A DNA stretch of 64,000 nucleotides, taken from NCBI RefSeq assembly GCF_019455445.1, contig NZ_JAHWUS010000001.1, positions 682,001 through 746,000 on the forward strand, read 5' to 3'. This document shows positions 21,667 to 51,295 of this stretch, piece after piece; the stretch's first letter is position 1; every line of letters starts with the position of its first letter. A program made the position numbers and the translations under genes. Origin of the DNA: Pseudaquidulcibacter saccharophilus (lineage in GTDB: Bacteria; Pseudomonadota; Alphaproteobacteria; Caulobacterales; Aquidulcibacteraceae). A model generated the notes under the pieces. It worked only from the letters and a program-made list of their open reading frames with translations, did no database searches and was not told the origin of the DNA.

Positions 21667-23922
21667 TTACCAACGTTTTATAAGCTGAACACCAGAGGTG
21701 AATGGTTGGTTGTAACGTCTTGCGGTTGTTGACTGGTAAATGACTTCAACATTGTCAAAGACGTTATTGGCAAAATACGCAATCTCATAACCTTTGAACT
21801 TGGCACCAATGCGCGCATTCACAATCTGCAAATCTTTGATTGGGAATAGTGGCGGAACAAGTTCTTGTTGGCCGCCCCAGTGACCGTTATAGTCAATATG
21901 CATAAAGCCATCTACGACATCGGTTATGCGGTGCGTATAATGTAAATCAAGACCCGCAGTCCAATCAGGCGCTTGTGGAAGGCTTGAGCCCTTATATTGA
22001 CCCTCAGTTACTTTTCCATCTTGTTTAGAGCCATTGGCATCAATTCGTAAATTACCGCCCAATAGTTTGAACATGGTTGATAATTCAAGCTCGATACCAG
22101 ATGCCTCTGCTTTACCGGCATTAGTTAAGAATGAGGTTGCAGTAATTGGGCAAGTTGGATTAGTTGCACGGCAACCGTTATCGGTCTGCACAATAAGGTT
22201 ATCAATCTCATTTTTATAATATGCGGTGGCAATGCTTACCCTGTCAAATAACCTTCCTCTGAAACCAACTTCGTATGCGGTGGTTTCTTCGTTTTGATAA
22301 GATGCAGGAATTGTAATTGGTTGGCGTGGGTCGCCTAGGTTTGTGTTAAAACCACCAGATCTATACGCAGTGCCAATTTTTGCATAAGCAGTTAGGCGTG
22401 GCAAAACTTTGTATGATGTTACAAAGTTATAAGAATAGTTGGTCGGTGACAGTTCTGAATCAATATTAAATGCACTTCCGCCAGCTTGTAAACCGGTTAG
22501 CAAGTCATAACGTTTTGCGTCAACTTGCTTTTTATCAGATGTATAGCGCCCTTCGTATGAGACTTCCCATTTCGGTGTAATTTTATACCCCAAGGAGCCA
22601 AAAAGCGCGCTTGAATCATAAATAACATTTGCAGGTGAACGCGCACCAGGCGATGGGTTTGCCTGGGTTGGTGTGCGGCCTGATGTTACCACGCTGTCGC
22701 TTTCAATTCTCAAAAGTTCAAAACCAGCAAGCCAGTTTAACTTTGAGTCAAGGAAGCTACCGTTAAACTGAAGGTTCTGCGATAATGTCTTGGTTTTATC
22801 AAGGTTCATCGAGCTAACACTTGGATCAAGCGCGCGCGTGAATGTTCCATTACTGCGACCAGTGTTGTAATCGGTTACGTTGATGCCATCACCATCAAAC
22901 TGATAATAGGTTTCACGATCACGATACATAGTATTTGATATAATCATACCCCAAGGATAGGTTCCGCTTAGGGTTAATATGTCTGTGGTTTGCTTTTGAT
23001 AAGCATATGGTTTGAAGTTCCAAGCATAGCTGAATTGTGGTTGATAATAACCCACTGGGAAGCCTGATGCTGCATTGGGGTCAATATAAACGCGATATGC
23101 AATTGCAGGAACGCGGTAGTCTTGCCCTTCATGCAAGAAGTTCATATCCCAATTAGCCATTTTATGACGTAATTGCGCGCGGTAGCCGCTGCCGTCATAA
23201 ATATCAAAATAGGTGTTATTGTCAGGATTTTTGAAAAAACCTTTATCCTGTTTAATATAGTCATAACCTAGGCGAATTGCGGTATTTTCACCCAAGGCAA
23301 TGTTTTGCACGATTTGTGCTTGGCTGCCTTCTATCTCGCTGGTGTATTTTAAATCAACAGAACCTTTATAAGATTCGTATTCAGGTAGAGCCGAAACGAT
23401 ATTAATGGCGCCGCCAACAGCGTTACGACCATATAATGCGCCTTGTGCGCCACGCATAACTTCAACGCGACCAACGTCAAATAAATCCATCTTAGCAAAG
23501 CTACGGCCACCAATTGCCCCGCCGCCAACATATGACGAGCTGCGATATAGTCCGACCGCAGGGTCAGAACTTGTAGCACGTGCAGTTGGTGAGCCACGCA
23601 TTGAAATTTCTGAGTTGGTTGGCGATGTGGAATCGTAAAAGCGCACACCGGCTTGACCCTCGACAAGTGATTTAACGCTAGTTACGCCGCCGCGGTCATT
23701 AAGTGTTTGTGCCGAAACTACGCTTACTGATGCGGGAACATCAATGAGTCTTTCAGAGCGCCGTCTAGCGGTAACGATTACCTTGTCACCTTCTTGCGCT
23801 TGTTCAGCATTGTTTCCATTTTGTGGTTCTGATGTGGCTTGTGTTGCGGCAAATGACATGCCTGCGTCACATAATAAGGCAATAGCCGCCGTACCTGCAA
23901 GGAATGCAGTCCGTAAATTCAT
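21667..23922 (-). CDS. TonB-dependent outer-membrane receptor
   Basis: A 751-residue TonB-dependent receptor importing a ligand through the outer membrane. Residues 1-25 are a signal peptide (LCDAGMSFA). A TonB-box-like DKVIVTARRRSE follows, then the plug (about 55-180) with PASVSVVSAQTL, VRFYDSTSPTNSEISMRG and VEVMRGAQGALYGRNAVGGA. The remainder is the beta-barrel, ending in an aromatic residue (LIKRW), as outer-membrane proteins do. The set of motifs fits the broad class common in Sphingomonadales and Caulobacterales; the ligand is unknown. AGGGAGG precedes the ATG. Copies of the shared palindrome and its position beside the GntR regulator tie it to the beta-oxidation operon. Confidence 0.93.
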   Translation of the reverse strand: MNLRTAFLAGTAAIALLCDAGMSFAATQATSEPQNGNNAEQAQEGDKVIVTARRRSERLIDVPASVSVVSAQTLNDRGGVTSVKSLVEGQAGVRFYDSTSPTNSEISMRGSPTARATSSDPAVGLYRSSSYVGGGAIGGRSFAKMDLFDVGRVEVMRGAQGALYGRNAVGGAINIVSALPEYESYKGSVDLKYTSEIEGSQAQIVQNIALGENTAIRLGYDYIKQDKGFFKNPDNNTYFDIYDGSGYRAQLRHKMANWDMNFLHEGQDYRVPAIAYRVYIDPNAASGFPVGYYQPQFSYAWNFKPYAYQKQTTDILTLSGTYPWGMIISNTMYRDRETYYQFDGDGINVTDYNTGRSNGTFTRALDPSVSSMNLDKTKTLSQNLQFNGSFLDSKLNWLAGFELLRIESDSVVTSGRTPTQANPSPGARSPANVIYDSSALFGSLGYKITPKWEVSYEGRYTSDKKQVDAKRYDLLTGLQAGGSAFNIDSELSPTNYSYNFVTSYKVLPRLTAYAKIGTAYRSGGFNTNLGDPRQPITIPASYQNEETTAYEVGFRGRLFDRVSIATAYYKNEIDNLIVQTDNGCRATNPTCPITATSFLTNAGKAEASGIELELSTMFKLLGGNLRIDANGSKQDGKVTEGQYKGSSLPQAPDWTAGLDLHYTHRITDVVDGFMHIDYNGHWGGQQELVPPLFPIKDLQIVNARIGAKFKGYEIAYFANNVFDNVEVIYQSTTARRYNQPFTSGVQLIKRW

Positions 23923-23941
23923 GGTTTATCCTCCCTATAAT

Positions 23942-23954
23942 ATTATTGATAATT
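23942..23954. promoter_or_regulatory. Palindromic operator ATTATTGATAATT, receptor promoter
   Basis: An exact 13-base copy of the shared palindrome, 20 bases upstream of the receptor start and about 23 bases downstream of a minus-strand TTGACA. Proposed site for the adjacent GntR protein. Confidence 0.6.
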
Positions 23955-24224
23955 CTTGTCATACTAAAATACAAAATTGTCAATATTTTTTAACGATTAA
24001 ATGTAAAAAATAATTCTAAATTTATGTTCATGTGCGGTAATAAAAATTTTTTCGCAAAAATAATGCCTGAAATGCTTTGTTTTGTAGGCAATTGTTGTAA
24101 GTGATGGTTTTTGTATTGGTTTAAAAATGCGCAGTGTTTTTTGTTGCTAATTTTAGAATAAATCCATTATAAAGGATGGATAAAATAGAAATATTATTTA
24201 TAATTGCATTTGTAAGCGTGAAAA

Positions 24225-24237
24225 ATAATCAATAATT
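24225..24237. promoter_or_regulatory. Palindromic operator (one mismatch), gntR promoter
   Basis: ATAATCAATAATT matches the reverse of the shared palindrome except at one base and lies 21 bases before the regulator's ATG. This would suit autoregulation. Confidence 0.5.
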
Positions 24238-24258
24238 TTTGCATTTTGGGAGTTTATA

Positions 24259-24987
24259 ATGAATAATAGGGCAGGTGAGGAGATGACAGAAAAAGACAAA
24301 TCTTCGAAAACACTAGATCGCCAAATTGCAGATGCGGTGATGAAGAAGATTATTACTTGGGAGATCCCACCTGGCTCATGGATTAAAGAGCGGGAAATTG
24401 CCGAAAAGTTTAAAGTTTCGCATGGTCCAGTACGCGAGGCATTCCGCCATCTTAGCCAAGCCGGCTTTGTTGAGGTCGTGCCATGGCGTGGCGCACATGT
24501 TATTGAGCTTACTCCAGAAGCGGTTCACGAAATTTATACATTGCTTACAAGTCTTTTTGGTGCTGTTTGTCGGCTTGCCGCAGAAAGGTTTGATAAAACC
24601 AATATTGCCGAACTTGATAAAGCATTTGAAGTTTATAACCAAAAAGCCTTGGCGGCAAATAATGTCGATACCCATTTTAATCATTCAATGGAATTGGGGC
24701 GTTATATTGCGTCATTGTCAAAAAGCGATTTTTCAGAGCAATTGTTAAATAAGACTGCAATACTTGCACGCTGGGCACATCAAATTGCACTCCATGAAAG
24801 TGTAAGCCAGATGCAGCCTGAATTAAGCTCAAGTTCAATTGCACTATATCGTATTGTGATTGAAATGATTAAAGCAAAACTTCCTAATGAGGCAGAGCGT
24901 GCCTCACGCGAGTTAACAGACTTTACTTATCGCATGTTGGTACGCACCATGGAGCAACGCCGCGATTTATTTAGCAAAGTAAATTAG
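24259..24987 (+). CDS. GntR family transcriptional regulator (FCD/FadR subfamily)
   Basis: A 242-residue regulator. The winged helix-turn-helix (about residues 16-80) shows IADAVMKKIITWEIPPGSWI, REIAEKFKVSHGPVREAFRH and the wing AGFVEVVPWRGAHV. The all-helical C-terminal half (about 90-235) is the FCD ligand-binding domain, where acyl-CoA, organic acid or metal-bound ligands usually bind. GGGAG six bases before the ATG supports this start over the internal ATG at 24283. It diverges from the TonB receptor and is convergent with the esterase end of the catabolic operon (4-base overlap). The shared palindromes make it the likely regulator of the island; whether it represses or activates is not shown. 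Confidence 0.92.
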   Translation: MNNRAGEEMTEKDKSSKTLDRQIADAVMKKIITWEIPPGSWIKEREIAEKFKVSHGPVREAFRHLSQAGFVEVVPWRGAHVIELTPEAVHEIYTLLTSLFGAVCRLAAERFDKTNIAELDKAFEVYNQKALAANNVDTHFNHSMELGRYIASLSKSDFSEQLLNKTAILARWAHQIALHESVSQMQPELSSSSIALYRIVIEMIKAKLPNEAERASRELTDFTYRMLVRTMEQRRDLFSKVN

Positions 24988-26495
24988 TTTTGCGTTTTAA
25001 GCGCTTTCTCAATGGCCTCGTATTTTGTGGCGTTTGCAATTGGTTTATTTTGATTATTATCGTCAAATGACATCATTGACGGCGCGTCTTTCTTTAGTTC
25101 TTTCCATTCAATTGAATTTGCAGATGGTGTTCCAGACTTTGCAAAATTAACCCACATTGTGTGAACAATGGCCTGCTGTTCATTGTCTCGTGGGGTTAAA
25201 AATGGCGCAATACGAGCGATAGAAGAAAAAGTTTCAAAGACATATGGGATTTCACCACCATGACCAACGCCATCGGCGCGACCGCGCATAATCTGTGCTA
25301 AGTATGAGAAATTATAGAAATATGTCTTATTATTTACCGAATGGTCGCGGGCAATTGTGTATGCAGGTGCGGCAAATACTGAATCTGTGAAAAATTTGCG
25401 CGCCTTTTGCGTATCGTCAAGATTTTGTCCATCGTAAAGCATATCAGCAAGTTTTTTACTTTGTGGATTTGCAAATATTGCGGTTGGCTTTAGGCCAAAC
25501 CTATCCATTAAAGAGCTTTCATTAGAATTGCTACCGATAATTAATGGAACTTTGGTTGATTGCGAATTGGCAAAAGCGGTGGCAACATCGGTTTTAACAA
25601 GTTTGTTATCGATATACGGCCCAAAACCCATACCTGAATCAAACTGGCTTAACTTATCAGCGGGAATTGCTTTAAGATCTGCAATTGAAGAATTTGCTGC
25701 AATCCCCATAGTTTCCATTTTGCTGGTGATTTCTGTTGAAAATTCTTCACGAGTTTTGAATTTTTGCCATCCACCGCCAGATTCTACGATTGCTTTTTGG
25801 AAAAGACCTTGTGCTTGCGGCAATGTCATTAAGTTAAGAACTGCACCACCACCCGCAGATTCACCAAAAATAGTGACATTGCTTTTATCGCCGCCAAACG
25901 CTTCGATATTTTCATTTACCCATTTTAAAGCCGCAATTTGATCCAGAGTTCCAAAATTACCGTTATAATTTTTATCGGTTGCAAATGCCTTATGATCAAA
26001 ATATCCAAATAAACCAAGTCGGTAATTAAAACTTACAAGAATTACGCCGTCGCGGGCAAATTTATCGCCATCATAAATCGGATTTGATGATGAACCAATG
26101 CGGTTTGCCCCACCATGAATCCAAACCATAACAGGAAGGTTTTTACCGCCATTTTTAGGAACAAAAACATTGGCAAACAAACAGTCTTCACTTTCTTTAC
26201 CCATTGGCTCTTCGCGTGAAGTGGCTTTTAAGGTTGCACTAAGTGATTGAACGCATGATGCGCCATATTTATCCGCCTTTAATGTACCAGACCAGTTTTG
26301 TGGTGCTGTGGGCTCTGTCCAGCGTTTTTCACCAATTGGTGCAGATGCATAAGGAATACCAAGATATTTAATAGAATTATCTTGTTTATTGCCCTCAATT
26401 TTTCCGTATTTTATTGTCACATCTTGCGCGTTTGCGATTTGTGCACATGACATAATGGCAAAAAGGCTGATTACAAAACTATTCACGGGCTTCAT
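24984..26495 (-). CDS. Secreted type B carboxylesterase
   Basis: A 503-residue alpha/beta-hydrolase of the carboxylesterase type B family. Residues 1-23 are a signal peptide (ending QIANA), so it acts in the periplasm or outside. The oxyanion hole is in WIHGGANRIGS; the nucleophile is Ser213 in GESAGGG; Glu326 (SNSNESS) and His412 (GHGGEIPY) complete the triad. The cysteine pair near 81 and 105 could form the usual disulfide. It is last in the seven-gene operon, 13 bases after the M28-like gene. It probably releases the acyl or alcohol part that the intracellular enzymes then degrade; the natural ester is unknown. Confidence 0.92.
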   Translation of the reverse strand: MKPVNSFVISLFAIMSCAQIANAQDVTIKYGKIEGNKQDNSIKYLGIPYASAPIGEKRWTEPTAPQNWSGTLKADKYGASCVQSLSATLKATSREEPMGKESEDCLFANVFVPKNGGKNLPVMVWIHGGANRIGSSSNPIYDGDKFARDGVILVSFNYRLGLFGYFDHKAFATDKNYNGNFGTLDQIAALKWVNENIEAFGGDKSNVTIFGESAGGGAVLNLMTLPQAQGLFQKAIVESGGGWQKFKTREEFSTEITSKMETMGIAANSSIADLKAIPADKLSQFDSGMGFGPYIDNKLVKTDVATAFANSQSTKVPLIIGSNSNESSLMDRFGLKPTAIFANPQSKKLADMLYDGQNLDDTQKARKFFTDSVFAAPAYTIARDHSVNNKTYFYNFSYLAQIMRGRADGVGHGGEIPYVFETFSSIARIAPFLTPRDNEQQAIVHTMWVNFAKSGTPSANSIEWKELKKDAPSMMSFDDNNQNKPIANATKYEAIEKALKTQN

Positions 26496-26508
26496 ATTAT
26501 GCTCCCTG

Positions 26509-27804
26509 CTATAATTGTTTTAATGTTTGCAATAATGAATCATAAACTGCTTGGGTTGCATGAAGATTTACGCAATCCATATTGTCATGCGGGCTATGGT
26601 GAAAACGATGCGCCCCTGCAAAGGCAATTATATTGCCATAACCATTTTCAACAATTTTTCCGGCTTCACCTGCTGCCTTTGCGCTTGCTTCGCGCACGAT
26701 TTCAAGGCCTGCCTGATTTTTGAAATTTTTGGTGCAAATATCTTTAAAATTTGGTGATGAATATAAAATTCTTTGCGCATCTACATTATTAAGCTTTGAT
26801 AATTTTACCCCAAGTTCAAACCAATCATTTGCCGCAAAGCCAGCCCCAAGATGCAGCCATAATTGGGTCTTGTCCGATTTTGGTAAATCTGCTTGGGCAA
26901 GGATTTCCGTACCAAAATTCTCAAATTCATGACCAGAAGTGCTGATAAATGCGAGATTGTATTTAGCCTTACTTTTTGCCAAATGGCGTGCCAAAGCAAG
27001 CCAAACAGCAACACCAGGGCCACGTTCGCCGGCGCATGAAAACCAACCACTGCGCGGGCTAGAAACCACAAGCCATTTATCAAATCCTTTATCTAATTTG
27101 CCGATAAGATTGTAACTATCAAAATTAACAAGACTACCGCTTTGGGTAAATTTTATTGTTTGAGGTGCATAAGATATTAATTTCGATCTTCCGCTTTGTT
27201 CGATAATGGCAATTGGAATATTAATACCATCCAATTTAATAGGGGTATTAAGGGCAAGTGCATCACCACTTGGACCTGTTGTGGCAATAATAACCGCTGA
27301 TGCACCGCCATTTGCCGCCGCGCTAAGTGGGTTTAATATATAAGGGTGCAAAATACTTGACCAACGGCTATAGGGTAAAATCAATAGAATAATTTTGCCG
27401 GTAACATTTGTTATTTTTTGTTCCGGTAAAAAATATGCAAATTCGGCATTAATGCCACTCTCTGGCGTCAAATTAAGTGGATATTGCGGTAATAGTTGAA
27501 TTTTATTTCCACCATATTCAATAAAAGATATTAAATCTTTTCCCCCCATCACGCTAAGTTTTTGACGAGTTGTTTTAAAGCCAAGTTTAGCTAATTCGCT
27601 CTCTTGCCAAATGGCGGCATTAATATCGCCTGGGCGCCCTGTTTGCTTGTTGCCAAAGTCAAAATAGGTTTGAATATCTTTAAGGAATGAATTCTCGTTC
27701 ATTTCTGCCGTTTCCGCAGAATGACCAGACGTAACAATACCAAGATTGGTCATTAAACCCATAAATATCCCGATATTTTCACGCCTATTCATTATCATTG
27801 TCAA
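26509..27804 (-). CDS. M28 peptidase-like protein with PA-type insert and degenerate metal site
   Basis: A 431-residue exported protein resembling M28 aminopeptidases. An N-terminal hydrophobic stretch (about residues 8-28) looks like a signal. A PA-like insert carries VTGKIILLILPYSRW and AANGGASAVIIATTGPSGD. In the catalytic fold, the usual HxD is replaced by SPRSGWFSCAGERGPG, the usual Glu-Glu pair is HE in TSGHEFENFG, and the later Asp position reads LHLGAG. The last histidine is kept in FHHSPHDNMD. Full peptidase activity is therefore doubtful; it may be a binding protein or use another chemistry. It overlaps the upstream acyl-CoA dehydrogenase by 4 bases and precedes the esterase, so it belongs to the same pathway. 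Confidence 0.7.
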   Translation of the reverse strand: MTMIMNRRENIGIFMGLMTNLGIVTSGHSAETAEMNENSFLKDIQTYFDFGNKQTGRPGDINAAIWQESELAKLGFKTTRQKLSVMGGKDLISFIEYGGNKIQLLPQYPLNLTPESGINAEFAYFLPEQKITNVTGKIILLILPYSRWSSILHPYILNPLSAAANGGASAVIIATTGPSGDALALNTPIKLDGINIPIAIIEQSGRSKLISYAPQTIKFTQSGSLVNFDSYNLIGKLDKGFDKWLVVSSPRSGWFSCAGERGPGVAVWLALARHLAKSKAKYNLAFISTSGHEFENFGTEILAQADLPKSDKTQLWLHLGAGFAANDWFELGVKLSKLNNVDAQRILYSSPNFKDICTKNFKNQAGLEIVREASAKAAGEAGKIVENGYGNIIAFAGAHRFHHSPHDNMDCVNLHATQAVYDSLLQTLKQL

Positions 27805-28889
27805 ATTTCCAATATATCTTTTTCAAGGTTTAAACGGTTTAAATGGAAATAATTGTCGCCCATCATGTTGCAGAACAACGTAAGTCGTTTGAAATAATGC
27901 GCGCCAATATATTCATCTGTCATACCAATGCCACCATGAAGTTGCACCGCTTGTTGTGATACAAATTTTGCGGCATTATTCACGCGTAACTTAGCATTGC
28001 TAACCGCGATTTTGCGTGCCTCAATATCATCATTATCAAGTAATAATGACGCATAAATGGCAATTGATAATGCCTGTTCTGTTTCAATCAGCATATCTAC
28101 CGCACGATGTTGCAAAACTTGAAAGCTGCTTAAAGGTACACCAAACTGATTTCGGGTTTTTAGATATTCGCTAGTTAGGTTTGTAATCATGCGCATCATA
28201 CCGATTGCTTCATAACAAAGTGCGATGATTGCAAAGTCTTTTGCATATTCAACAACATTGTCATCATTACAAATTTTTACTGCCCCGACATTTTCAAAAT
28301 ATAAATCACATTTTGCGGATGTGTCATGGGTCATAAATTTATTTATATTCAAACCCTTTGCGTCATTGGCAATTAGGAAAATACCAATTTTGCCACCTGT
28401 CATTTGGGCATTTACAAGGAAATAATCATTTTCAAAATTTGCGTTAGTTTTTACGCCATTGATTACACCATTATTCTCATTGGTTTTAACGATTGCACCA
28501 TTGCTGCGGTTGTTAAATTCATCAAAGGCAATAGAAATAGTTTTTTCGCCAGAAATTATGCTTGCGATTAATTCGTCTTTCCCAGCGAAATCATCTGCTT
28601 TATCTAGAATGCGACAGGCGTATGCAGTTTCTGCAAGTGGAATATTGCATAATGATTTACCGACTTCTTCCATTGCGATCATGGTTTCAGTGGGCGATGA
28701 ATATAGCCCACCGTTTTCTTCGGAAAATAGCATTGCCAAAATGCCCATCTCTGCTGCTGCATGGCTTAATTCACGAATATTTTTCGATGAATTTTTCAAA
28801 GCGCGTGAGTGACTTTTTGCACCATCGGCAAAAAAGCGGGCGAAACTATCTTGGATTTGAATTTGTTCAGAGTTTAGGTCAAAATTCAT
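27801..28889 (-). CDS. Acyl-CoA dehydrogenase family protein (smaller partner)
   Basis: A 362-residue acyl-CoA dehydrogenase-fold protein. The N-terminal helical domain includes MGILAMLFSEENGG; the C-terminal domain shows TRNQFGVPLSSFQVLQHRAV and QLHGGIGMTDEYIGAHYFKR, segments that contact FAD in this family. The middle domain is divergent: the usual FAD-binding (S/T)EPxxGSD motif is absent, with ISIAFDEFNN in that region. It lies 2 bases after another acyl-CoA dehydrogenase gene. Adjacent unequal pairs form alpha2beta2 enzymes in steroid side-chain degradation (for example ChsE4-ChsE5), and I infer a similar partnership here. The substrate is unknown. Confidence 0.85.
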   Translation of the reverse strand: MNFDLNSEQIQIQDSFARFFADGAKSHSRALKNSSKNIRELSHAAAEMGILAMLFSEENGGLYSSPTETMIAMEEVGKSLCNIPLAETAYACRILDKADDFAGKDELIASIISGEKTISIAFDEFNNRSNGAIVKTNENNGVINGVKTNANFENDYFLVNAQMTGGKIGIFLIANDAKGLNINKFMTHDTSAKCDLYFENVGAVKICNDDNVVEYAKDFAIIALCYEAIGMMRMITNLTSEYLKTRNQFGVPLSSFQVLQHRAVDMLIETEQALSIAIYASLLLDNDDIEARKIAVSNAKLRVNNAAKFVSQQAVQLHGGIGMTDEYIGAHYFKRLTLFCNMMGDNYFHLNRLNLEKDILEI

Positions 28890-28891
28890 TT

Positions 28892-30085
28892 TTAAAAGCC
28901 CATTATTGCTTTGGAAAGAATGTTATGTTGGATTTCATTTGAGCCACCATAAATCGATAATTTGCGATTATTGAAATATGATGATGCAACCGCATCAAGC
29001 CATTCGAAATCTTGATTGCCTGATTTGTAAATTTCGCGAATTTGCGGGCTTTCACTGTCTTTGCCTGCAACCTCAAGCAATAGTTCGGTGGTTGCCTGTT
29101 GCAATTCCGAACCCTTTATTTTCAACATTGATGTCAATGGATCTGGTGCATCCGAATCATGACCTTGTTGTTTTGCAAGGATGCGCAATTGCGTAATCTC
29201 AAGCGCTTTTATATCCGCAGCAGTTTGCAAAAAGCGTGCGCGGAAAACTGCATCATCCCAAAGTTTTTCGCCATTGGCATCAGGGGTTTTGGCATATGAT
29301 TTTATTCTTTGCATTCTTTGTTTGGCCACGCCAATTTTGGCAATACCAAAACGTTCGTTCGACAAAAGGAACTTTGCATAATCCCATCCGCGATTTTCTT
29401 CGCCCACTAAATTTTCGGCCGGAACACGCACATTATCAAAGAAGACCTCATTAACCTCATGATTGCCTTCAACGGTTATAATTGGGCGCACCTCGATACC
29501 GGGTGTTTTCATGTCAACCAAAATAAAGGAAATGCCTTTCTGCTTTTTGGCAGTTGGATCGGTGCGCACCAAACAGAATATCCAATCGGCAAAATGACCC
29601 AAAGTAGTCCATGTCTTTTGCCCATTGATGATGTATTCATTGCCGTCACGCACCGCAGTGGTTTTAAGTGACGCAAGATCAGAGCCTGCGCCAGGCTCAG
29701 AAAAACCTTGCCCCCACCAAATTTCAAGACTTGCGGTTGGTTGCAGGAATTTTTCTTTTTGTTCTTTTGAGCCAAAATGTGCGATTACCGGCCCCACCAT
29801 ATTAGCATTAAATTCGAGTGGCATAGGCAAGGATGCGCGTTGCATTTCTTCACCAAAAATGTGCCTTTGCACTGGCGTCCAATCGGCGCCACCATATTCT
29901 TTGGGCCAATGTGCCGTTGCCCAGCCTTTTTCATATAATTTGCGGTGAACTTTTATGAAATCTTCTTTTTCAAGCTCGCGGTCATGTGCCATTTTAAAGG
30001 CGACGTCTTTTGGCATTTCGGTTTCGATAAAATTACGCACTTCATCACGAAATGCGGTTTCATCTTTGGTGAATTCCAGTTCCAT
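28892..30085 (-). CDS. Acyl-CoA dehydrogenase (catalytic partner)
   Basis: A 397-residue FAD-dependent acyl-CoA dehydrogenase catalysing alpha,beta-desaturation of an acyl-CoA. The FAD motif GFSEPGAGSDLASL is at about residues 127-140, and WTTLGHFADWIF follows. Glu244 in LLSNERFGIA sits where ChsE4-type enzymes carry their catalytic base; the alternative C-terminal position reads YGGSNEIQHN, with Gly in place of the MCAD glutamate. It resembles the actinobacterial and alphaproteobacterial FadE groups acting on branched or cyclic acyl chains. It is 9 bases after the CoA ligase gene and paired with the next dehydrogenase gene. Confidence 0.92.
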   Translation of the reverse strand: MELEFTKDETAFRDEVRNFIETEMPKDVAFKMAHDRELEKEDFIKVHRKLYEKGWATAHWPKEYGGADWTPVQRHIFGEEMQRASLPMPLEFNANMVGPVIAHFGSKEQKEKFLQPTASLEIWWGQGFSEPGAGSDLASLKTTAVRDGNEYIINGQKTWTTLGHFADWIFCLVRTDPTAKKQKGISFILVDMKTPGIEVRPIITVEGNHEVNEVFFDNVRVPAENLVGEENRGWDYAKFLLSNERFGIAKIGVAKQRMQRIKSYAKTPDANGEKLWDDAVFRARFLQTAADIKALEITQLRILAKQQGHDSDAPDPLTSMLKIKGSELQQATTELLLEVAGKDSESPQIREIYKSGNQDFEWLDAVASSYFNNRKLSIYGGSNEIQHNILSKAIMGF

Positions 30086-30094
30086 TTTATCCCT

Positions 30095-31765
30095 TTATGA
30101 GCTTGTTAATGATGCATTTTTTGCATTCTCTTCATCAATGAGGACGCGTGCCAAAAGTTTACCAGCAGCACTTTTTGGCAAATCATCCCTGAATTCAAGT
30201 GCGGTTGGAATTTCATGACGACCCAATTTGTCGCCAAGAAATTCCTTTAATTCATCTAATGTGAATTTTTCCGCATTGGGCTTTAGCTTGATAAAAGCTT
30301 TTGCCGATTGACCGCGATATTCATCTGGAATGCCAATTACTATGCATTCGGCAACCCCGTCCCTTTGATAAATCGCGTTTTCAATATTAACTGGATAGAC
30401 GTTAAACCCGCCGGAGATAATCATATTTTTACGGCGATCGATAATTTCAAAAACACCGTTTTCATCACAAGAACCAATATCACCTGTTAGGAAATACCCA
30501 TCTTTAAAAGATTCTTGATTGGCGGTTGGGTCATTATAATATCCTGAAAAAACATTACCGCCTTTGACGGCAATTTCTCCTGATTGCCCAATCTCAACCT
30601 CTTTGTAATCATTGTCAAAATCAAGAATTTTAATATCAACCTCAGGGATTGGTATGCCAATAATGCGTGGTCTTATTTTTTGTCCAACTGGAACGCGAGT
30701 ACCCGATGCACAGGTTTCCGTCATGCCCCAGCCAACGCCCAGCATGGTTCCAATTAGCTTTTCAATATTATTGTGAACTTCAAACGGTAAAGGAGCACCA
30801 CCGCTGACACAAAATTTAAGTGCCGAAAAATCAATTTCATTCGCACGTGGGTGGTGTAACAATGCAAACCACATTGTTGGCACACTTGCCAATGCACTAG
30901 CCTTGTTATGCTCTATATCATAGATAATTTCGTCCATATCAAAGCGTTCTTTGATAAGAATACGACTGCCATCAATGACGTGGCGCAGCAAAACCCCAAC
31001 CAAGGCATAAATATGGAATAATGGCAAAACACAGATTGCGGTTTCGGTGCCTGATTTTACTTCATAAGGTTCGGTAAAATTGCGCGATTGGTTTACAGCA
31101 GTGGACAAATTACTATGTGTAAGAATTGCGGCTTTTGGATAGCCTGTTGTCCCACCAGTAAATTGCAGCAATGCCGTATCATCAATCAAAACATCTGGAA
31201 GTATAACATCCGACGCCTTGGCAATAATTTCGTCAAGCATTGTGACATGGTTTTTGCCATCATATTTTGATAAATTTAGTGGTGACTTACCCCAAAAATC
31301 ATCATCGCATAAAATCAATTCATCAATTGTGTTATCATCAACAAAGGCAAATGTGTTTTTGCAAAAAACCTCTTGATTTATGCTTATGATTTTGCGGCAA
31401 TCAACAATTTTCAATTTTTGACGTAGCTCATTAATCGCATCAAGAGGCGATAAATGGACCACTATTGCACCCGCTTTTAATATCGCAAAAAATGCCAAGG
31501 GGTGAAAAATCGTATTGGGCAAATAAAGCGCGATTTTATCGCCTTTTTTTACACCATGATTGACCAATCCTTGTGAAAGTTTGTGCACCATATTGCCAAA
31601 ATCACCATAAGTAATTTTGGTATCGCGATATTCAAAAACGGTTTTGTCTTTGAATTTTTTTGCCGATTCATCCAATAATTCACAAAGGCTGGTTATATTG
31701 AGCTTTTCATTCCATTTTGCGCCTTGTGGAAAGTGTTTTTCCCATATCCTCTCAGGTTTATTCAA
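30095..31765 (-). CDS. Long-chain acyl-CoA ligase (AMP-binding)
   Basis: A 556-residue ANL-superfamily ligase that activates a carboxylic acid with ATP and CoA. The P-loop is LLQFTGGTTGYPKAAILTH; GWGMTETCASGTRVP is motif A5; GYFLTGDIGSCDENG and IDRRKNMIISGGFNVYP are the hinge region; the catalytic lysine is in KSAAGKLLARVL near the C-terminus. The start is TTG, supported by GGGAGGAAACA. It lies between the hydratase/dehydrogenase and acyl-CoA dehydrogenase genes, so it makes the CoA ester that they oxidise. The name long-chain comes from similarity only; steroid or terpenoid acids are possible. Confidence 0.92.
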   Translation of the reverse strand: MNKPERIWEKHFPQGAKWNEKLNITSLCELLDESAKKFKDKTVFEYRDTKITYGDFGNMVHKLSQGLVNHGVKKGDKIALYLPNTIFHPLAFFAILKAGAIVVHLSPLDAINELRQKLKIVDCRKIISINQEVFCKNTFAFVDDNTIDELILCDDDFWGKSPLNLSKYDGKNHVTMLDEIIAKASDVILPDVLIDDTALLQFTGGTTGYPKAAILTHSNLSTAVNQSRNFTEPYEVKSGTETAICVLPLFHIYALVGVLLRHVIDGSRILIKERFDMDEIIYDIEHNKASALASVPTMWFALLHHPRANEIDFSALKFCVSGGAPLPFEVHNNIEKLIGTMLGVGWGMTETCASGTRVPVGQKIRPRIIGIPIPEVDIKILDFDNDYKEVEIGQSGEIAVKGGNVFSGYYNDPTANQESFKDGYFLTGDIGSCDENGVFEIIDRRKNMIISGGFNVYPVNIENAIYQRDGVAECIVIGIPDEYRGQSAKAFIKLKPNAEKFTLDELKEFLGDKLGRHEIPTALEFRDDLPKSAAGKLLARVLIDEENAKNASLTSS

Positions 31766-31806
31766 TGTTTCCTCCCTGATGTTTTAATTTTATGGCGTTT
31801 TTGTCT

Positions 31807-33876
31807 TTAAAATTTGCTTTTTGACGCCCCTAATTTTTGTAAAAGTTCGCACGGCTTTAAATTTTCATTGCCGGTTTGCGCATGTTGTTTTTCAAGCGAG
31901 TGAACGATTTTATCCAAACCAATTTGCCCCGCCCAATACATTGGGCCGCCTTTATATGCCGGCCAACCGAAACCATTAATCCAGACCATATCAATGTCTG
32001 ACGCCTTGAGCGCGATTTTTTCTTCAAGAATTTTTGCGCCCTCATTAATCATGGGATAGAATAAAATTTCAATTAGTTCTTCTTTGTTGAAGGTTTTGCG
32101 TTCTATTTTTAGCGCCTTGGATTGTTCGGCAATAAAATTTTCGACAAATTCATCACGCTCTGGAAGGCGTGAACCTTCGCTATACATATAGAAGCCTTTG
32201 CCGTTTTTCTGGCCCAAACGCCCCATTTTTGCAAGGCTTCCGGCAATGCCAGGGTCAAGGTTAAAGGCTTCGGTGATGCGCATGCCAATATCAAGTCCTG
32301 CGAGATCGCTCATGGCGAAATGCCCCATTGCAAAGCCGAATTCAGTGATTACTTCGTCAATTTCGTGCGGCAGCGCGCCTTGTAATAATGCTTCATTTGC
32401 GGCATCAATCCGCGCCATAAGCATGCGGTTGCCGATAAAACCAAAACATACGCCAGATACGACCGGAAGTTTTTTCAAGGTCTTTGCAAGTTTAACCGCG
32501 CTATTAAGTGTTACCGCGGAAGTTTTGTCGCAATTAACAATCTCCAACAAGCGCATAACGTTTGCCGGTGAGAAGAAGTGAAGGCCAATAACGTTTTCTG
32601 GTCGCGAGGTTTGCGCTGCCATTTCCTCAATATTTAGGAATGAGGTGTTTGACGCCAATATTGCATCAGGTTTGCAGATCTTATCAAGTTTTTGGAATAA
32701 TTCCTTTTTGATGTTCATATCTTCGAAAATTGCTTCAATAACAATATCGACATCTTTACAATCTTCAAGATTGGTTGAACCGGTAATTAAAGACATTGCT
32801 TTTTCAAGCTTTTCTTGTTTTAGGCTGCCACGCTTTACCGAAATTTCATAGTTAGATTTTACGCGACCGATGCCATTATTAAGCGCTTCATCCGAAGTTT
32901 CGATAATCTTAACTTCAATGCCCGCATTGGCAAAACACATTGCAATGCCGCCACCCATTGTGCCGCCACCAATAACCGCCGCTTTTTTAATTTCTTTGGC
33001 AGGGGTTTCTTTAGTGATGCCAGGAAGATTATGCGTGGTTTCGCGCTCTGAAAAGAACACATATCTTAGGGCCTTTGATTGCGCACCTTTTAAAAGTTTG
33101 AGGAACAGCTCACCTTCAAGTTTTAGGCCGGCTTCAATTTCGGTGTCATAACATGCGGCAATTGCCTCAATGATTAATTCAGTTGTGGCAAGGGGTTTAA
33201 GCTTTTTACGATATCCGGCACATGCGGCATCAAAATCTGCACGGGTGCTTGGATCTGCGAAGGTTGGTTTTTGCCATTCTTCTTGCCCCTTTTCAGCAAG
33301 ATCAAGCGCCATTTCAACCGCCTTGGCAATAATTTCTTCTGGTGCATAAACCGCGCTAGCAAGCCCGCTTTCAACAGAATCTTTTGCATTGATTATGCCG
33401 CCCTTAATAATCAAATCGAGCGCTAGTGCAGGATTGATGAGGCGCGGCATTCTTTGTGTGCCACCAGCGCCTGGAAGAATACCCAATTTTACTTCAGGCA
33501 AGCTAAAAGTGGCGTTTGGTGTCATAAGGCGGCGATGCGAACCCAAAGAGATTTCACAACCGCCACCAAATGCAGGGCCATTTACAGCAACAATAAACGG
33601 TTTGGGGAATGTGGCAATATTATCAATAATGAAGGGTAGGCTAGGGTCCAAATCACCACTATCAAATTCGGTAATATCTGCACCACCACTAAAGAAAGTA
33701 GTTGAGGAAGTTAACACCACGCCCTTTATATTATTGTCATTACGCGCTGCCTCGATGGCATCGACGATTTCTACCCGCAATTTTTTGCCAAATAAGTTCA
33801 ATGGCGGTGCATTTAGTTTGATAATTTCTACACCATTAATATTTTCGGTAAGTAGTGTTTTATATTCTTTGCCCAT
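31807..33876 (-). CDS. Bifunctional enoyl-CoA hydratase/3-hydroxyacyl-CoA dehydrogenase (FadB/FadJ-like)
   Basis: A 689-residue multifunctional beta-oxidation enzyme. Residues 1-190 are a crotonase domain with both catalytic glutamates (GGGCEISLGSHRR and FSLPEVKLGILPGAGGTQR). The NAD-binding domain opens with AAVIGGGTMGGGIAMCFANA near residue 298 and contains NTSFLNIEEMA and ENVIGLHFFSPANVM. The C-terminal repeats include GFAMGHFAMSDLAGLDIG and INEGAKILEEKIA. It hydrates enoyl-CoA and oxidises the 3-hydroxyacyl-CoA to the keto form for the thiolase encoded 32 bases upstream. The length suits the shorter MFE-like group rather than E. coli FadB. Confidence 0.94.
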   Translation of the reverse strand: MGKEYKTLLTENINGVEIIKLNAPPLNLFGKKLRVEIVDAIEAARNDNNIKGVVLTSSTTFFSGGADITEFDSGDLDPSLPFIIDNIATFPKPFIVAVNGPAFGGGCEISLGSHRRLMTPNATFSLPEVKLGILPGAGGTQRMPRLINPALALDLIIKGGIINAKDSVESGLASAVYAPEEIIAKAVEMALDLAEKGQEEWQKPTFADPSTRADFDAACAGYRKKLKPLATTELIIEAIAACYDTEIEAGLKLEGELFLKLLKGAQSKALRYVFFSERETTHNLPGITKETPAKEIKKAAVIGGGTMGGGIAMCFANAGIEVKIIETSDEALNNGIGRVKSNYEISVKRGSLKQEKLEKAMSLITGSTNLEDCKDVDIVIEAIFEDMNIKKELFQKLDKICKPDAILASNTSFLNIEEMAAQTSRPENVIGLHFFSPANVMRLLEIVNCDKTSAVTLNSAVKLAKTLKKLPVVSGVCFGFIGNRMLMARIDAANEALLQGALPHEIDEVITEFGFAMGHFAMSDLAGLDIGMRITEAFNLDPGIAGSLAKMGRLGQKNGKGFYMYSEGSRLPERDEFVENFIAEQSKALKIERKTFNKEELIEILFYPMINEGAKILEEKIALKASDIDMVWINGFGWPAYKGGPMYWAGQIGLDKIVHSLEKQHAQTGNENLKPCELLQKLGASKSKF

Positions 33877-33908
33877 TTTGTTTCCGTATCATCCCAAAAA
33901 TTATAATT

Positions 33909-35084
33909 TTAATAGATTTCAAAAAGACCTGCTGCACCTTGGCCGCCACCAATACACATGGTTACAACACCATATTTTGCGCCGCGTCTTTTGCCTTCAT
34001 AAAGAACGTGTCCTGCAAGGCGTGCACCCGTCATGCCATATGGGTGCCCGATTGAGATACCGCCGCCGTTTACATTCAAAAGCTCGTTCGGAATGCCAAG
34101 GTGATCGCGGCAATAAAGCACCTGAACCGCGAAGGCTTCATTTAGTTCCCAAATACCAATATCTTCAATGCCAAGTCCAAAGCGTTTTAATAGTTTCGGA
34201 ATTGCAAACACGGGGCCAATGCCCATTTCATCGGGTTTTGTTCCCGCAACTGCCATGCCAAGATATGCACCCAATGGCTCAAGATTGGCTTTTTGCGCTG
34301 ATGCTTCTTCCATCATGATTAATGCTGCTGCGCCATCGGATAATTGTGATGCGTTGCCCGCAGTAATAACGCCATTTTCACGCACTGGCTTTAAGGATGA
34401 AAGTGCTTCTAATGTGGTTTCTGGGCGATTACCTTCATCTTTGGTTATTGTTGTTTGTTTATATTCAACCGCACCAGTTTCTTTGTTCATTACCGCCATT
34501 GTTACATCACAGGCGATAATTTCCTTGTCAAAATACCCATTCGCTTGTGCGTTGGCGGTCCTTTGTTGCGATTGTAGTGAATATTCGTCTTGCTGTACGC
34601 GTGAGATATTATAGCGTTTTGAAACCACTTCGGCGGTATCAAGCATTGGCATATAATTATCATCCAAAATCGTCACCAAAGACTTATCGATTTCAACACG
34701 GAATTGTTGGTTTTGAACCAATGATATTGATTCAACCCCACCAGCCGCAACCACATCCATGCCTTCATTAACAATTTGGTTAGATGCAATCGAAATTGCC
34801 ATAAGGCCTGATGCGCACTGTCTATCAATGCTTTGCCCTGGCACACTAATCGGAAGTCCTGCGCGCATTGCAACATTTCGGCTTATATTGCCGGCTTGAT
34901 AACCTTGTTGTAGGGCGCAGCCAAAAACACAATCACCAATTTCGGCGGCATCAATACCCGCACGCTTTACCGCTTCTTTTAATGCAAATGCGCCAAGCGT
35001 TGGTGATGGTGTGGCGTTAAACGCCCCCTTATATGCCCGACCAATCGGCGTACGCGCCGCAGAGACTATAACTGATTTTCTCAT
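33909..35084 (-). CDS. Acetyl-CoA acyltransferase (thiolase)
   Basis: A 391-residue thiolase closing the beta-oxidation cycle. The acyl-accepting cysteine is in [14 protein letters not shown] (near residue 88); the active-site histidine is in [20 protein letters not shown]; the second cysteine is in [15 protein letters not shown]. The ATG at 35084 is set by GGGGAAGAA; a TTG ten codons earlier would add [10 protein letters not shown], which the family does not have. It is the first gene of the seven-gene operon and stands behind the promoter with three palindrome copies. Confidence 0.95.
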
Positions 35085-35159
35085 TTCTTCCCCGAAATTG
35101 CTGTTTGGTGCCAAATTATTCTTTTTGTTGGGTGGTGGTTAAATTTCCGCCCGTTGCAA

Positions 35160-35173
35160 AATTATTGATAATT
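35160..35173. promoter_or_regulatory. Palindromic operator AATTATTGATAATT, copy 1
   Basis: A perfect 14-base copy (six-base arms around TG), overlapping the proposed -10 box of the thiolase operon. A protein bound here should block transcription. Confidence 0.65.
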
Positions 35174-35201
35174 TTTATGCCATAAAGAAAGAGTCTGTCA
35201 A
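35172..35201 (-). promoter_or_regulatory. Putative sigma70-type promoter of the thiolase operon
   Basis: On the minus strand, TTGACA (35196-35201) is separated by 18 bases from TAAAAA (35172-35177). It lies about 90 bases upstream of the thiolase ATG and is enclosed by palindrome copies 1 and 2. Confidence 0.5.
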
Positions 35202-35205
35202 GAAA

Positions 35206-35219
35206 AATTATTGATAATT
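35206..35219. promoter_or_regulatory. Palindromic operator AATTATTGATAATT, copy 2
   Basis: A perfect copy lying 4 bases upstream of the -35 box and 46 bases from copy 1. Confidence 0.65.
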
Positions 35220-35359
35220 TTGCAGATATTTATTTGTATTATTATGATTGTAGTGCTTGATGTGGCTATTAGTAGTGCTTTTACAGCTTTTATTAGTGTT
35301 TGAGTGTAGGGATTTGGTTACCCTGGGGTCGATTTAGTGTGATTTGAATGACTTGCAAT

Positions 35360-35373
35360 AATTATTGATAATT
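35360..35373. promoter_or_regulatory. Palindromic operator AATTATTGATAATT, copy 3
   Basis: A perfect copy 154 bases beyond copy 2. It could serve looping, or a further promoter. Confidence 0.55.
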
Positions 35374-35463
35374 ATAAAGAGATTCCCAAAAATCGGGCAC
35401 CAATAAAGGGGGAGTGACGCACGACTTCTGGGAATCAAACTGGTTAAAAATCAAAAGGCTTTG

Positions 35464-36810
35464 TTATGCCTTGATAATTGGCGGGACTCGCCATTTACGC
35501 TCGATCAATTCGTTTTTCGGCAAATACGCCCTTAGTGCAAGCCTAATTGGGGCTTCTTTGGTTGATGGTAGCCAATTTGCCGCCATGTCACCGTCGGGTT
35601 TTTCGTTTTGGATTCTTATAATAATGCTTCCATCTTTTTCGCGAATAAGCCCTTGGGTGCGGTTGCCAATTGAATAACGATTGATAGGGTTTTTAATTAA
35701 ATACCATCGACCGTCTGGTGTACCTTCATAAATCGTTAAAGACCAAAACGCATTAACGGGCACTCCTTCTGGTGGGATGCGCCAAATATAAGAATTTTGA
35801 CCGGATAATCTTTCGCCTTTGTTGTCAAAATTGCAATGGAAATACATTGCCTCGTCTTCAGTAAGTGCCGCAAGGCCGCCCAGCGCAACGGTTGCGCGCA
35901 AATAATCGTCTTTGCCAAAATTCCCGACACCGCGTGGTTGATAGCTCCAGCCGTCAACAACTAGGTCATGAAATAAAAAGGCTTCCCTAAGTTGCTTTAT
36001 GCCTTGTGGTATTAATGCATCCCATTGGGCAAGGATCTTTTTAGATGGTAGTTTTGCATTCGGACCAATTCCATATGCGGCAAAATTTTTCGCGCGTAAT
36101 GTTTGCCCCGCAGCGACAGGAGATCGGCGCAACATTTCATTAACAACTGTTAGGAAGCTTGTGGCATCTTTAATATCGTCCGTGGCGGCATTTTGATAGC
36201 CACGTGCCGGCGGGTAATTTTCAGGAATTATGATTTGGATTTTTTGTTGAAATGCTTTTGCGGCATCAAGATCTTCTGGACTGTCAACAAGGATGCGCGC
36301 CAGCATCCAAACATCATTTGTGGTGGATTTGAATAGTGTGACGTCATCTGGAACTTTTCCTTTCCAAGATGGACCAGCAAGCCAGTAGCGGCCACCTTTG
36401 CCGTGGGTTGCACGTGTGCCAATATATGCAAAACAATCGGTGAATGCATCCATGAATACGATTGAAAAATACCTGTCGCCGCCATCTGGTGAAACAATTT
36501 CAACGGGGCCATTCACTAAATCAAAAAAGCAAGAAGAATATATCGTGTCATTATTTGGTGCAGTTACTTGGCGTGATGTGTCATTTGCAAGGTAGTTGCG
36601 CATTGTAACTTTGCCAATATTGCCGGGTGTTCCAAGGCATTTTGCAAGTTTTTGTTCGTTTCTTGCGAATTCGTAAAGGGTGTAGGCATAATAAAATGCG
36701 GCTTTTAATCCTGTTTCTTTACTTGTGTTGCTTGCAAATGCCTCTAGCGGAAGCCCCATTCCCAAAATTGGTAAAATAGCACTGGATTTGATGAAATCGC
36801 GTCTTAACAT
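35464..36810 (-). CDS. DUF1254/DUF1214 domain protein with Tat-type signal
   Basis: A 448-residue exported protein. The N-terminus MLRRDFIKSSAILPILG is a twin-arginine-like signal, and the ATG is fixed by GGGAGGGAAAA; an earlier ATG at 36831 adds seven unneeded residues. The DUF1254 part carries TAPNNDTIYSSCFFDLVNGP and RYFSIVFMDAFTDCFAY; the DUF1214 part carries NAFWSLTIYEGTPDGRWYL and RYSIGNRTQGL near the C-terminus. The biochemical function of the family is not established. It has two copies of the shared palindrome upstream, so it is likely coexpressed with the receptor and beta-oxidation genes and may act on the substrate in the periplasm. Confidence 0.88.
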   Translation of the reverse strand: MLRRDFIKSSAILPILGMGLPLEAFASNTSKETGLKAAFYYAYTLYEFARNEQKLAKCLGTPGNIGKVTMRNYLANDTSRQVTAPNNDTIYSSCFFDLVNGPVEIVSPDGGDRYFSIVFMDAFTDCFAYIGTRATHGKGGRYWLAGPSWKGKVPDDVTLFKSTTNDVWMLARILVDSPEDLDAAKAFQQKIQIIIPENYPPARGYQNAATDDIKDATSFLTVVNEMLRRSPVAAGQTLRAKNFAAYGIGPNAKLPSKKILAQWDALIPQGIKQLREAFLFHDLVVDGWSYQPRGVGNFGKDDYLRATVALGGLAALTEDEAMYFHCNFDNKGERLSGQNSYIWRIPPEGVPVNAFWSLTIYEGTPDGRWYLIKNPINRYSIGNRTQGLIREKDGSIIIRIQNEKPDGDMAANWLPSTKEAPIRLALRAYLPKNELIERKWRVPPIIKA

Positions 36811-36875
36811 TTTTCCCTCCCTTAATTCCATGTTTTCATGGTTCTTTTGGTTTAGGTTACACTGGGAATGAAACT

Positions 36876-36897
36876 TGTCAATATATTATCAATAATT
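36876..36897 (-). promoter_or_regulatory. -35 element and palindromic operator upstream of the DUF1254 gene
   Basis: ATTATCAATAATT (36885-36897) lies 3 bases upstream of TTGACA (minus strand, 36876-36881), the same arrangement as copy 2 of the thiolase promoter. A weak -10 (TAACCT) follows at a spacing of 16. Confidence 0.55.
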
Positions 36898-37002
36898 TTT
36901 ATAAATAAAAATGTTGTTATTTTATATTCTAGTGCTTAATCAATTGTTTTAATGTAAATAATATCTAGTTTTTAAAATTTATTAAAATTTATTTATGTAA
37001 AA

Positions 37003-37015
37003 TTTATCAATAATT
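37003..37015. promoter_or_regulatory. Distal palindromic operator (one mismatch)
   Basis: TTTATCAATAATT, one base away from the consensus, about 190 bases before the DUF1254 start and just past the stop of the next TonB receptor gene. Confidence 0.4.
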
Positions 37016-41462: not shown

Positions 41463-42566
41463 TTAAAATAGAGTGACGTTTTTACCATCTTTATTAAAAA
41501 CATGAATATGACTTAAATCAAAGCTAAGGCTATGATTTTTACCGATTTTCGCATTAAATTCTGGTGCAAGCTGTAGGGTTATTTTGACTTCACTATCTTT
41601 ATCATCTGCGGTTTCAAAATAAGCATATTTTGCATGCCCTAATTCCTCTACAAATTGCAGTTTTGCATCAAGCAACCCCTTGTTTTCAGATATAAATAAA
41701 TGCTCAGGGCGTATGCCAACGGTTACATCGTCACCGATTCTTAAATCAGAATTGATTTTAATGGTAATTTCAGAGTGATTATTGATAAGAATTTGGGCTT
41801 CTTTTGCATTCGTATTAATAACTTTTGCTTTGATGGAATTCATTTTTGGTGAGCCAATAAAGCCCGCAACAAAAATATTTTCTGGGCGCTTATAAAGTTC
41901 AAGTGGCGCGCCATATTGTGAAATATAGCCATTATTTAAGACCACGATTTTATCCGCCAATGTCATTGCCTCAATCTGATCATGGGTAACGTAAATAATG
42001 GTTTTACCCAAGGTTTCGCCAAGGCGCGCAAATTCATAGCGCATTTTAACCCGTAAGGCGGCATCAAGGTTTGATAATGGCTCGTCAAATAAAAATACTT
42101 CTGGCTTGCGAACGATGGCGCGGCCAATTGCAACCCTTTGACGTTGACCGCCCGATAATTCTTTGGGTTTGCGGTTTAATAGGTGATCAATATTTAGGGT
42201 CTTGGCAGCAGCACGCACCGCAACGTCAATTTCTTCTTTTGGCCTGCTGGCAAGTTTTAGCGCAAAAGCCATATTATCATAAACATTCATATGCGGATAA
42301 AGCGCATATGATTGAAATACCATGGCAATTCCGCGTTCAAGTGGTGAATGATTGGTAACATCTTTACCGCCAATAAAAACTTGTCCTGCGGTTGGTGTTT
42401 CTAGCCCTGCAATCAAACGCAAAAGTGTTGATTTCCCACAACCTGATGGGCCAACAAAAACCACAAACTCCCCATCTTTGATGTCGAGGTCGATGTTTTT
42501 GATGACTTCAACTTGGTTTTTGTCCCCAAAGCTTTTTTTGATGTTTTTTAATTCTATGCCTGCCAT
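41463..42566 (-). CDS. Sugar ABC transporter ATP-binding protein (MalK/UgpC-like)
   Basis: A 367-residue ATPase of the CUT1 carbohydrate importer class. Walker A is GPSGCGKSTLLR (about residues 37-48), the signature LSGGQRQRVAIGRAI, Walker B VFLFDEPLSNLDA, and the H-loop VTHDQIEAMTLAD. The C-terminal TOBE/OB-like part (about 240-367) has VGIRPEHLFI, as in MalK and UgpC. It is the last gene of the minus-strand glycan operon, overlapping the 998-residue protein gene by one base, and should energise the two permeases encoded upstream. Confidence 0.95.
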   Translation of the reverse strand: MAGIELKNIKKSFGDKNQVEVIKNIDLDIKDGEFVVFVGPSGCGKSTLLRLIAGLETPTAGQVFIGGKDVTNHSPLERGIAMVFQSYALYPHMNVYDNMAFALKLASRPKEEIDVAVRAAAKTLNIDHLLNRKPKELSGGQRQRVAIGRAIVRKPEVFLFDEPLSNLDAALRVKMRYEFARLGETLGKTIIYVTHDQIEAMTLADKIVVLNNGYISQYGAPLELYKRPENIFVAGFIGSPKMNSIKAKVINTNAKEAQILINNHSEITIKINSDLRIGDDVTVGIRPEHLFISENKGLLDAKLQFVEELGHAKYAYFETADDKDSEVKITLQLAPEFNAKIGKNHSLSFDLSHIHVFNKDGKNVTLF

Positions 42567-49976: not shown

Positions 49977-50054
49977 AACAAATCCCTGTAACTTACGCCG
50001 ATATTTCGACAAATATTTTTAATTGGCAATCAGTCTTGCACAAATTTTTAATTT

Positions 50055-50070: not shown

Positions 50071-50115
50071 ATAATAAGATGCAGATAATGTGGTTTTTGT
50101 TTTAATCCACTTATT

Positions 50116-51289: not shown

Positions 51290-51295
51290 AAATGC

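Follow-up and report, generated by a model that had tools for sequence, protein, structure and literature searches.

An intergenic palindrome in an uptake and beta-oxidation gene island of Pseudaquidulcibacter saccharophilus is the probable operator of the island's FCD-GntR regulator

A 64,000-bp stretch of the Pseudaquidulcibacter saccharophilus genome (contig NZ_JAHWUS010000001.1, positions 682,001 to 746,000; hereafter the window, whose own coordinates are used throughout) contains a gene island with a TonB-dependent receptor gene, a seven-gene run from thiolase to esterase and a DUF1254/DUF1214 gene on the minus strand, and an FCD-GntR regulator gene on the plus strand. Eight copies of the palindrome AATTAT-NN-ATAATT lie in four promoter regions of this island. 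From sequence comparisons we put the probability at about 0.85 that the palindrome is the operator of the regulator encoded at 24259-24987, which would probably use it to repress uptake and degradation genes.

Distribution and conservation of the palindrome

The motif is a 14-mer, AATTAT-TG-ATAATT, made up of two six-base arms around a two-base centre; its core is ATTAT-NN-ATAAT, in which both centre bases vary. A preliminary description of this DNA had named seven copies. The motif was present at all seven places, three times exactly and four times with one mismatch to AATTATTGATAATT, and an eighth site that fits WATTATNNATAATW had been overlooked (TATTATTTATAATT, 24192-24205). The copy at 37003 had been attributed to the DUF1254 gene; it directly follows the stop codon of the upstream outer-membrane gene and stands 120 bp above the TTGACA of the DUF1254 gene. 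All eight sites are listed in Table 1.

The genome comprises 2,838,469 bases in 12 contigs, with about 40% GC. Within the window WATTATNNATAATW has six matches, against 0.06 expected from shuffled sequences. Genome-wide, AATTATTGATAATT occurs at 24 places with at most one mismatch, compared with eight for a reversed control pattern, and its three exact copies all stand at the thiolase promoter. The 13,075-bp island makes up 0.5% of the genome and holds seven of the 24 matches; the rate in the rest of the genome would predict 0.08. None of these seven is within an open reading frame (ORF) of at least 100 amino acids, whereas every one of the 17 matches outside the island is; one of them (L018) lies in a 243-amino-acid ORF that by eye encodes a leucyl/phenylalanyl-tRNA transferase. 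The preliminary description had taken similar numbers of matches before unrelated genes as evidence against its reading, and none appeared in this genome. No wider regulon was found elsewhere in the genome at one mismatch, weaker sites not being sought genome-wide. A further copy, ATTATCAATAAT, is found at 33619-33630 inside the FadJ/PimF-like gene, and the 12-mer is also present in the relative UBA1933; it was excluded from the operator count.

UBA1933, a metagenome-assembled genome of a sister species in the Hyphomonadaceae, is the nearest named relative found, with 85.3% DNA identity over 19.9 kb, and contains both the regulator and the sites. Its three spacers are 81%, 72% and 78% identical to those of the window. 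Of the eight sites, five are identical, two differ at one base and the distal 35360 site differs at two. All 14 bases are kept at 24192, 24224, 35160 and 36884, and 13 of 14 at 23941 and 37002. The counterpart of the 35360 site, TATTATTGATAATA, is altered symmetrically at both ends, with the palindrome retained within a spacer of weak conservation. The paired sites at the operon promoter are 46 bp apart in both genomes. The third exact copy in UBA1933 is inside an ORF resembling an ATP-binding cassette (ABC) transporter ATPase.

The regulator is rare. It was detected in two of 61 genomes (the organism's own and relatives; E-value 1e-30), both of which have the island, and in one of 385 genomes of the class at 1e-35, namely the window's own. 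Among the plasmid matches listed from a search of 72,556 records, the best by far in score, at 39.6% identity, were two records from Sphingopyxis macrogoltabida; with the Sphingopyxis regulator as query, these two plasmid records alone were returned at 1e-18. There the regulator gene adjoins homologues of the receptor (44% identity), the M28-like protein (36%) and the esterase (37%). The 36.7-kb Sphingopyxis stretch has 62% GC and contains exactly two copies of TTATNNATAA, both of them TTATCGATAA. One stands between gntR and the divergent gene beside it, the other directly before the receptor gene. Since regulator and site recur together in another order, they appear to belong together, and this is the strongest evidence for the proposed pairing. 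TTATCGATAA also occurs at locus L065, within a 397-amino-acid ORF.

Recognition residue and operator sequence

The window regulator has an N-terminal GntR winged helix (PF00392, 50.9 bits; cut-off 27) and a C-terminal FCD domain (PF07729, 33.3 bits; cut-off 24.3), and is thus a member of the FCD, or FadR-type, branch of the GntR family. The operator of the FadR subfamily is TKGT/ACMA, with BioR (TTATMKATAA) named as an exception (PMC4494728). The TKGT/ACMA boxes were not found in the island sites, which carry TTAT...ATAA instead; because BioR is a known exception, their lack is no bar to FCD membership.

The position at issue is that of FadR Arg45 (domain position 38), which makes a specific contact to G (PMC4494728). 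The recognition helix of the window regulator, VSHGPVREAFRHL, has His55 there, and the Sphingopyxis protein carries His as well. Five more FCD regulators were found in this genome, with Val, Arg, Ala, Arg and Arg at the position. A search of the 385 class genomes for further regulators of the H[GA]P[VI]REA type, a pattern that would miss the SHVP of BioR, returned only the window's own and, judged by translation, two non-GntR matches. A class-level GntR profile search gave, besides the window's regulator, four Arg-type proteins in three genomes.

BioR is a GntR/FCD repressor of biotin genes in the alphaproteobacteria; its sites occur upstream of its own gene and in tandem at the promoters of its targets (PMC4554459). 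The island system resembles it in its GntR and FCD domains, its His at the FadR-Arg45 position (SHVPVREAF in BioR), its TTAT-NN-ATAA operator, the site before its own gene and the tandem sites at target promoters. It differs in that its targets are uptake and beta-oxidation genes and in the centre of the site: TG, CA and TT in the window fall outside MK, whereas the Sphingopyxis centre CG fits. No biotin gene was found among the ten island proteins scanned and no BioY in the genome at 1e-15, other bio genes elsewhere not being searched for. The FCD part also scores differently, at 33 bits in the island regulator, 23 in Sphingopyxis (narrowly below the 24.3 cut-off) and 84 in BioR; because it scores low in the island clade, its pocket should not be taken for an ordinary FCD one.

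To compare residue and site we assembled loci of both types, their rows being related to one another. BioR-type loci were eight chosen from 30 matches listed (of 183 records) and two among 70 of 124 BioY places. In the 70 BioY loci surveyed, an FCD-GntR was detectable by profile in two: L119, which has SHVPVREAF and two TTATCTATAA sites, and L137, which has SHVPVREAF and lacks such a site across 5.5 kb. The eight plasmid BioR-type genes all encode His, and four are annotated directly before bioB. Arg-type loci were 12 plasmid matches from 40 listed (of 1,367 records), less L163, whose helix did not match the pattern, together with five genomic loci (L064 and L069-L072). At L067 and L068 the GntR genes near distant M28-like genes encode Val and Thr at the key position; being of neither type, they were left out of the comparison.

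Near the gene start, an exact TTATNNATAA was present at seven of 13 His-type loci (and at two more with one mismatch) and at none of 16 Arg-type loci. The reverse held for TTGT(N2-3)ACAA, found exactly at seven of the 16 Arg-type and none of the 13 His-type loci. Over whole loci, TTATNNATAA was present in 8/13 His-type and 0/16 Arg-type loci (Fisher p 3e-4, uncorrected for relatedness or locus length). The BioR-type loci L137, L146, L151 and L152, all with SHVPVREAF, have no TTATNNATAA in the stretch covered and no one-mismatch form near the gene start; their operators may lie elsewhere or have diverged.

FCD regulators of the TTGT(N2-3)ACAA type, such as the Arg-type L069 and L071, share with the island system the family, a palindrome with a two-nucleotide centre and flanking A/T; they differ in having Arg for His and G/C for A/T. 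At L069, ATTGTTGACAAT, 39 bp before the open frame, is the same palindrome with G/C, and differs from ATTATTGATAAT solely at the G and the C. At L064 an Arg-type regulator stands beside a receptor and an M28-like gene, with TTGTCTACAA. At the island sites A/T stands where the family has G/C, and this accompanies the exchange of the G-contacting Arg of FadR for His55 in the regulator.

In a tree of 32 rows the His label needs two changes, and none of 200 bootstrap trees allows one. The island clade (100/99) nests with the Arg-types (97/92) and is separate from the BioR clade (100/100). The root was drawn at the midpoint, sampling was small and several rows have long branches; the tree is therefore support for, and not proof of, an independent origin. 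That the island regulator is itself a true BioR was rejected on the same tree, none of the 200 bootstrap trees uniting the His-types, and on its targets. BioR appears to have reached the pairing of His with A/T independently of the island regulator. We consider the chances even that the change from Arg to His alone retunes an FCD-GntR from TTGT-NN-ACAA to TTAT-NN-ATAA, and that this happened at least twice independently, in BioR and in the island regulator.

Promoter geometry and competing explanations

The preliminary description had proposed that the FCD-GntR at 24259 controls the receptor, the periplasmic protein and the beta-oxidation operon through the palindrome. Comparison supports this short of proof, since site, regulator and residue occur together. 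Its account of the spacing to TTGACA was essentially right as well: the sites at 35206 and 36884 precede such a box by 4 and 2 bp, and those at 35160 and 23941 follow one at 22 and 23 bp downstream. The Sphingopyxis receptor gene has its site 19 bp downstream of TTGACT. For gntR the candidate promoter is TGGATA-16-TATAAT (10/12 matching bases), with its -10 hexamer inside the 24192 site. An inverted repeat, ATCCAT...ATGGAT (24162-24181), overlaps the likely gntR -35 box and is kept in UBA1933; it could be the site of a second regulator, or chance.

Operators over the -10/+1 zone at the receptor gene and the operon, and around the likely gntR -10 hexamer, would suit a repressor. We therefore infer that the regulator probably represses. 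The regulator could instead bind and activate at least some units, the DUF1254 gene and the operon, from sites beside the -35 box; we consider this unlikely, though it is the most serious alternative. In its favour, these two promoters have sites that precede TTGACA by 2 and 4 bp, respectively. On the other side, the -10/+1 zone is also covered by a site at the receptor, operon and gntR promoters, and BioR reportedly acts as a repressor (PMC4554459).

Less probable still, and in our view improbable, is that the operators are real and read by a different regulator encoded elsewhere, the adjacent gntR being merely another target. Confinement and conservation of the sites name no protein by themselves, and the comparison within the genome covered FCD regulators rather than other families. 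Recurrence of site and regulator together on the plasmid of another order argues for the island's own regulator, as does the site itself, an FCD palindrome type with a two-nucleotide centre, in a genome where none of the five further FCD regulators found has His at the key position. In G001, a member of the genus in which the regulator was not detected at 1e-30, 14 of 15 matches are inside ORFs, and the closest pairs are separated by about 2.5 and 5.9 kb; in G004, also without the regulator, both exact matches are in ORFs. This classification covered two of the 28 matches in G004 and left out the 34 in G002.

Accidental palindromes in the AT-rich spacers of a genome with about 40% GC are a negligible explanation: the motif is AT-rich outside its centre and its looser form (13-mer, two mismatches) is less special, with 24 occurrences in the window and eight expected, but the shuffle and genome counts, the intergenic placing of the sites, their conservation and their recurrence in a stretch of 62% GC reject it.

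Several results weigh against the assignment of the palindrome to a repressing FCD-GntR. The promoter scan found no more promoters overall than in shuffled sequences and did not return the three TTGACA-based promoters, the gntR candidate being among its three best matches. Both DUF1254 sites lie upstream of the TTGACA and would equally suit an activator. In UBA1933, confinement is less clean because three of 13 off-island matches lie outside any ORF of at least 100 amino acids, the other ten being inside. An exact TTATNNATAA was not found near the gene start in six of the 13 His-type loci (two of which have the one-mismatch form), nor an exact TTGT(N2-3)ACAA in nine of the 16 Arg-type loci. 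An Arg at position 28 reportedly disfavours A/T at the site position next to it (PMC4494728), and the window regulator has Arg45 at position 28 although its site carries T there. His is counted among the residues that generally prefer G (PMC4494728). A structure model of the regulator (predicted local distance difference test, pLDDT, 49) was too poor for use.

The island pathway and its significance

The beta-oxidation genes recall the pimFABCDE operon of Rhodopseudomonas palustris, which serves dicarboxylate degradation and likewise has a thiolase, a FadJ-like enzyme, a ligase and large and small acyl-CoA (coenzyme A) dehydrogenases in one gene run. The 31807..33876 gene resembles PimF. The island differs in its additional M28-like and esterase genes, and in the profile scan of island proteins the PimA, PimC and PimD scores were all below the equivalog cut-offs (Table 1). 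Because the genes resemble PimA, PimC and PimD yet score below those cut-offs, the pathway is taken to be of the dicarboxylate or acyl kind, and pimelate itself is not claimed.

In eight aligned members of the M28-like family, [ST]GxxxCxxERG and the H...D stretch are present in all and GHE in seven. The M28 zinc site has HxD and D at the corresponding places, and the alignment suggests that the active site may have been altered. A GntR gene stands close to the M28-like gene at L063, L064, L067 and L068; none was found near it at L065 or in the short L066. A sugar ABC transporter cluster (41463-52750) adjoins the island and, named by eye from translations, includes a LacI-type regulator (50116-51120) and a beta-glucosidase-like gene (51353-52750); it is seemingly a separate catabolic unit.

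Table 1. Predicted operators, promoter boxes and genes of the island, with one homologue from another locus
Feature	Position	Strand	Remarks
Operator TATTATTGATAATT (predicted)	23941..23954		23 bp downstream of receptor gene's TTGACA
Operator TATTATTTATAATT (predicted)	24192..24205		contains likely gntR -10 hexamer, 24199-24204
Operator AATTATTGATTATT (minus strand; predicted)	24224..24237		between likely gntR promoter and start codon
Operator AATTATTGATAATT, exact (predicted)	35160..35173		22 bp downstream of operon's TTGACA, over -10/+1 zone
Operator AATTATTGATAATT, exact (predicted)	35206..35219		4 bp upstream of operon's TTGACA; 46 bp from 35160 site
Distal operator AATTATTGATAATT, exact (predicted)	35360..35373		
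Operator AATTATTGATAATA (minus strand; predicted)	36884..36897		2 bp upstream of DUF1254 gene's TTGACA
Distal operator AATTATTGATAAAT (minus strand; predicted)	37002..37015		120 bp above DUF1254 TTGACA
TTGACA boxes	23978-23983, 35196-35201, 36876-36881	-	receptor gene, operon, DUF1254 gene
TonB-dependent receptor, 751 amino acids, proposed target	21667..23922	-	PF00593, PF07715; 44% identity to Sphingopyxis receptor
FCD-GntR regulator, 242 amino acids	24259..24987	+	PF00392 50.9 bits, PF07729 33.3 bits, both above cut-off
Type-B carboxylesterase, operon's last gene	24984..26495	-	PF00135 370.6 bits
M28-like protein, active-site motifs altered	26509..27804	-	PF04389 21.2 bits, cut-off 21.3; family alignment
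Acyl-CoA dehydrogenase, small, PimD-like	27801..28889	-	TIGR03203 226.1 bits, cut-off 652.7
Acyl-CoA dehydrogenase, large, PimC-like	28892..30085	-	TIGR03204 534.7 bits, cut-off 623.85
Acyl-CoA ligase, PimA-like	30095..31765	-	TIGR03205 519.8 bits, cut-off 705.6
Enoyl-CoA hydratase / 3-hydroxyacyl-CoA dehydrogenase, FadJ/PimF-like	31807..33876	-	domain profile matches
Thiolase, PimB-like, operon's first gene	33909..35114	-	PF00108/PF02803; PRK07108 551.9 bits, cut-off 615
DUF1254/DUF1214 protein, proposed target	35464..36831	-	PF06863, PF06742
Outer-membrane gene upstream of DUF1254 gene	37018-39093	-	
M28-like homologue	L063:18720-20033		

In the mechanism we propose, a dimer of the regulator would bind with one recognition helix in each ATTAT half-site. 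The eight sites would serve the receptor gene, gntR itself, the operon of seven genes from thiolase to esterase and the DUF1254 gene. Looping or cooperative binding could involve the paired or distal sites. The receptor would import an ester- or amide-linked compound, from which the esterase and the M28-like protein would free the acyl part for degradation by the ligase and dehydrogenases. Carboxylic acids are common ligands of FadR-subfamily proteins (PMC4494728); a ligand of acyl or dicarboxylic kind from the imported compound, or its CoA ester, would release the regulator, and uptake, de-esterification and beta-oxidation would be switched on together.

The island would give a Hyphomonadaceae bacterium a complete small regulon of regulator, operator and targets, tying the uptake of an ester compound to its beta-oxidation. 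The regulon adds one more example to a familiar kind; what is new is the pairing of His with A/T that it shares with BioR. No statement of the His/A-T versus Arg/G-C pairing was found in a literature search made largely without subscription journals. BioR had been excluded from a residue-base analysis because its site did not align with the others (PMC4494728), and the pairing offers a simple and testable reason for this. If it is true, the BioR operator would be an ordinary FCD palindrome read by a changed residue, and the pairing suggests a readable residue-base rule for one large family of bacterial regulators.

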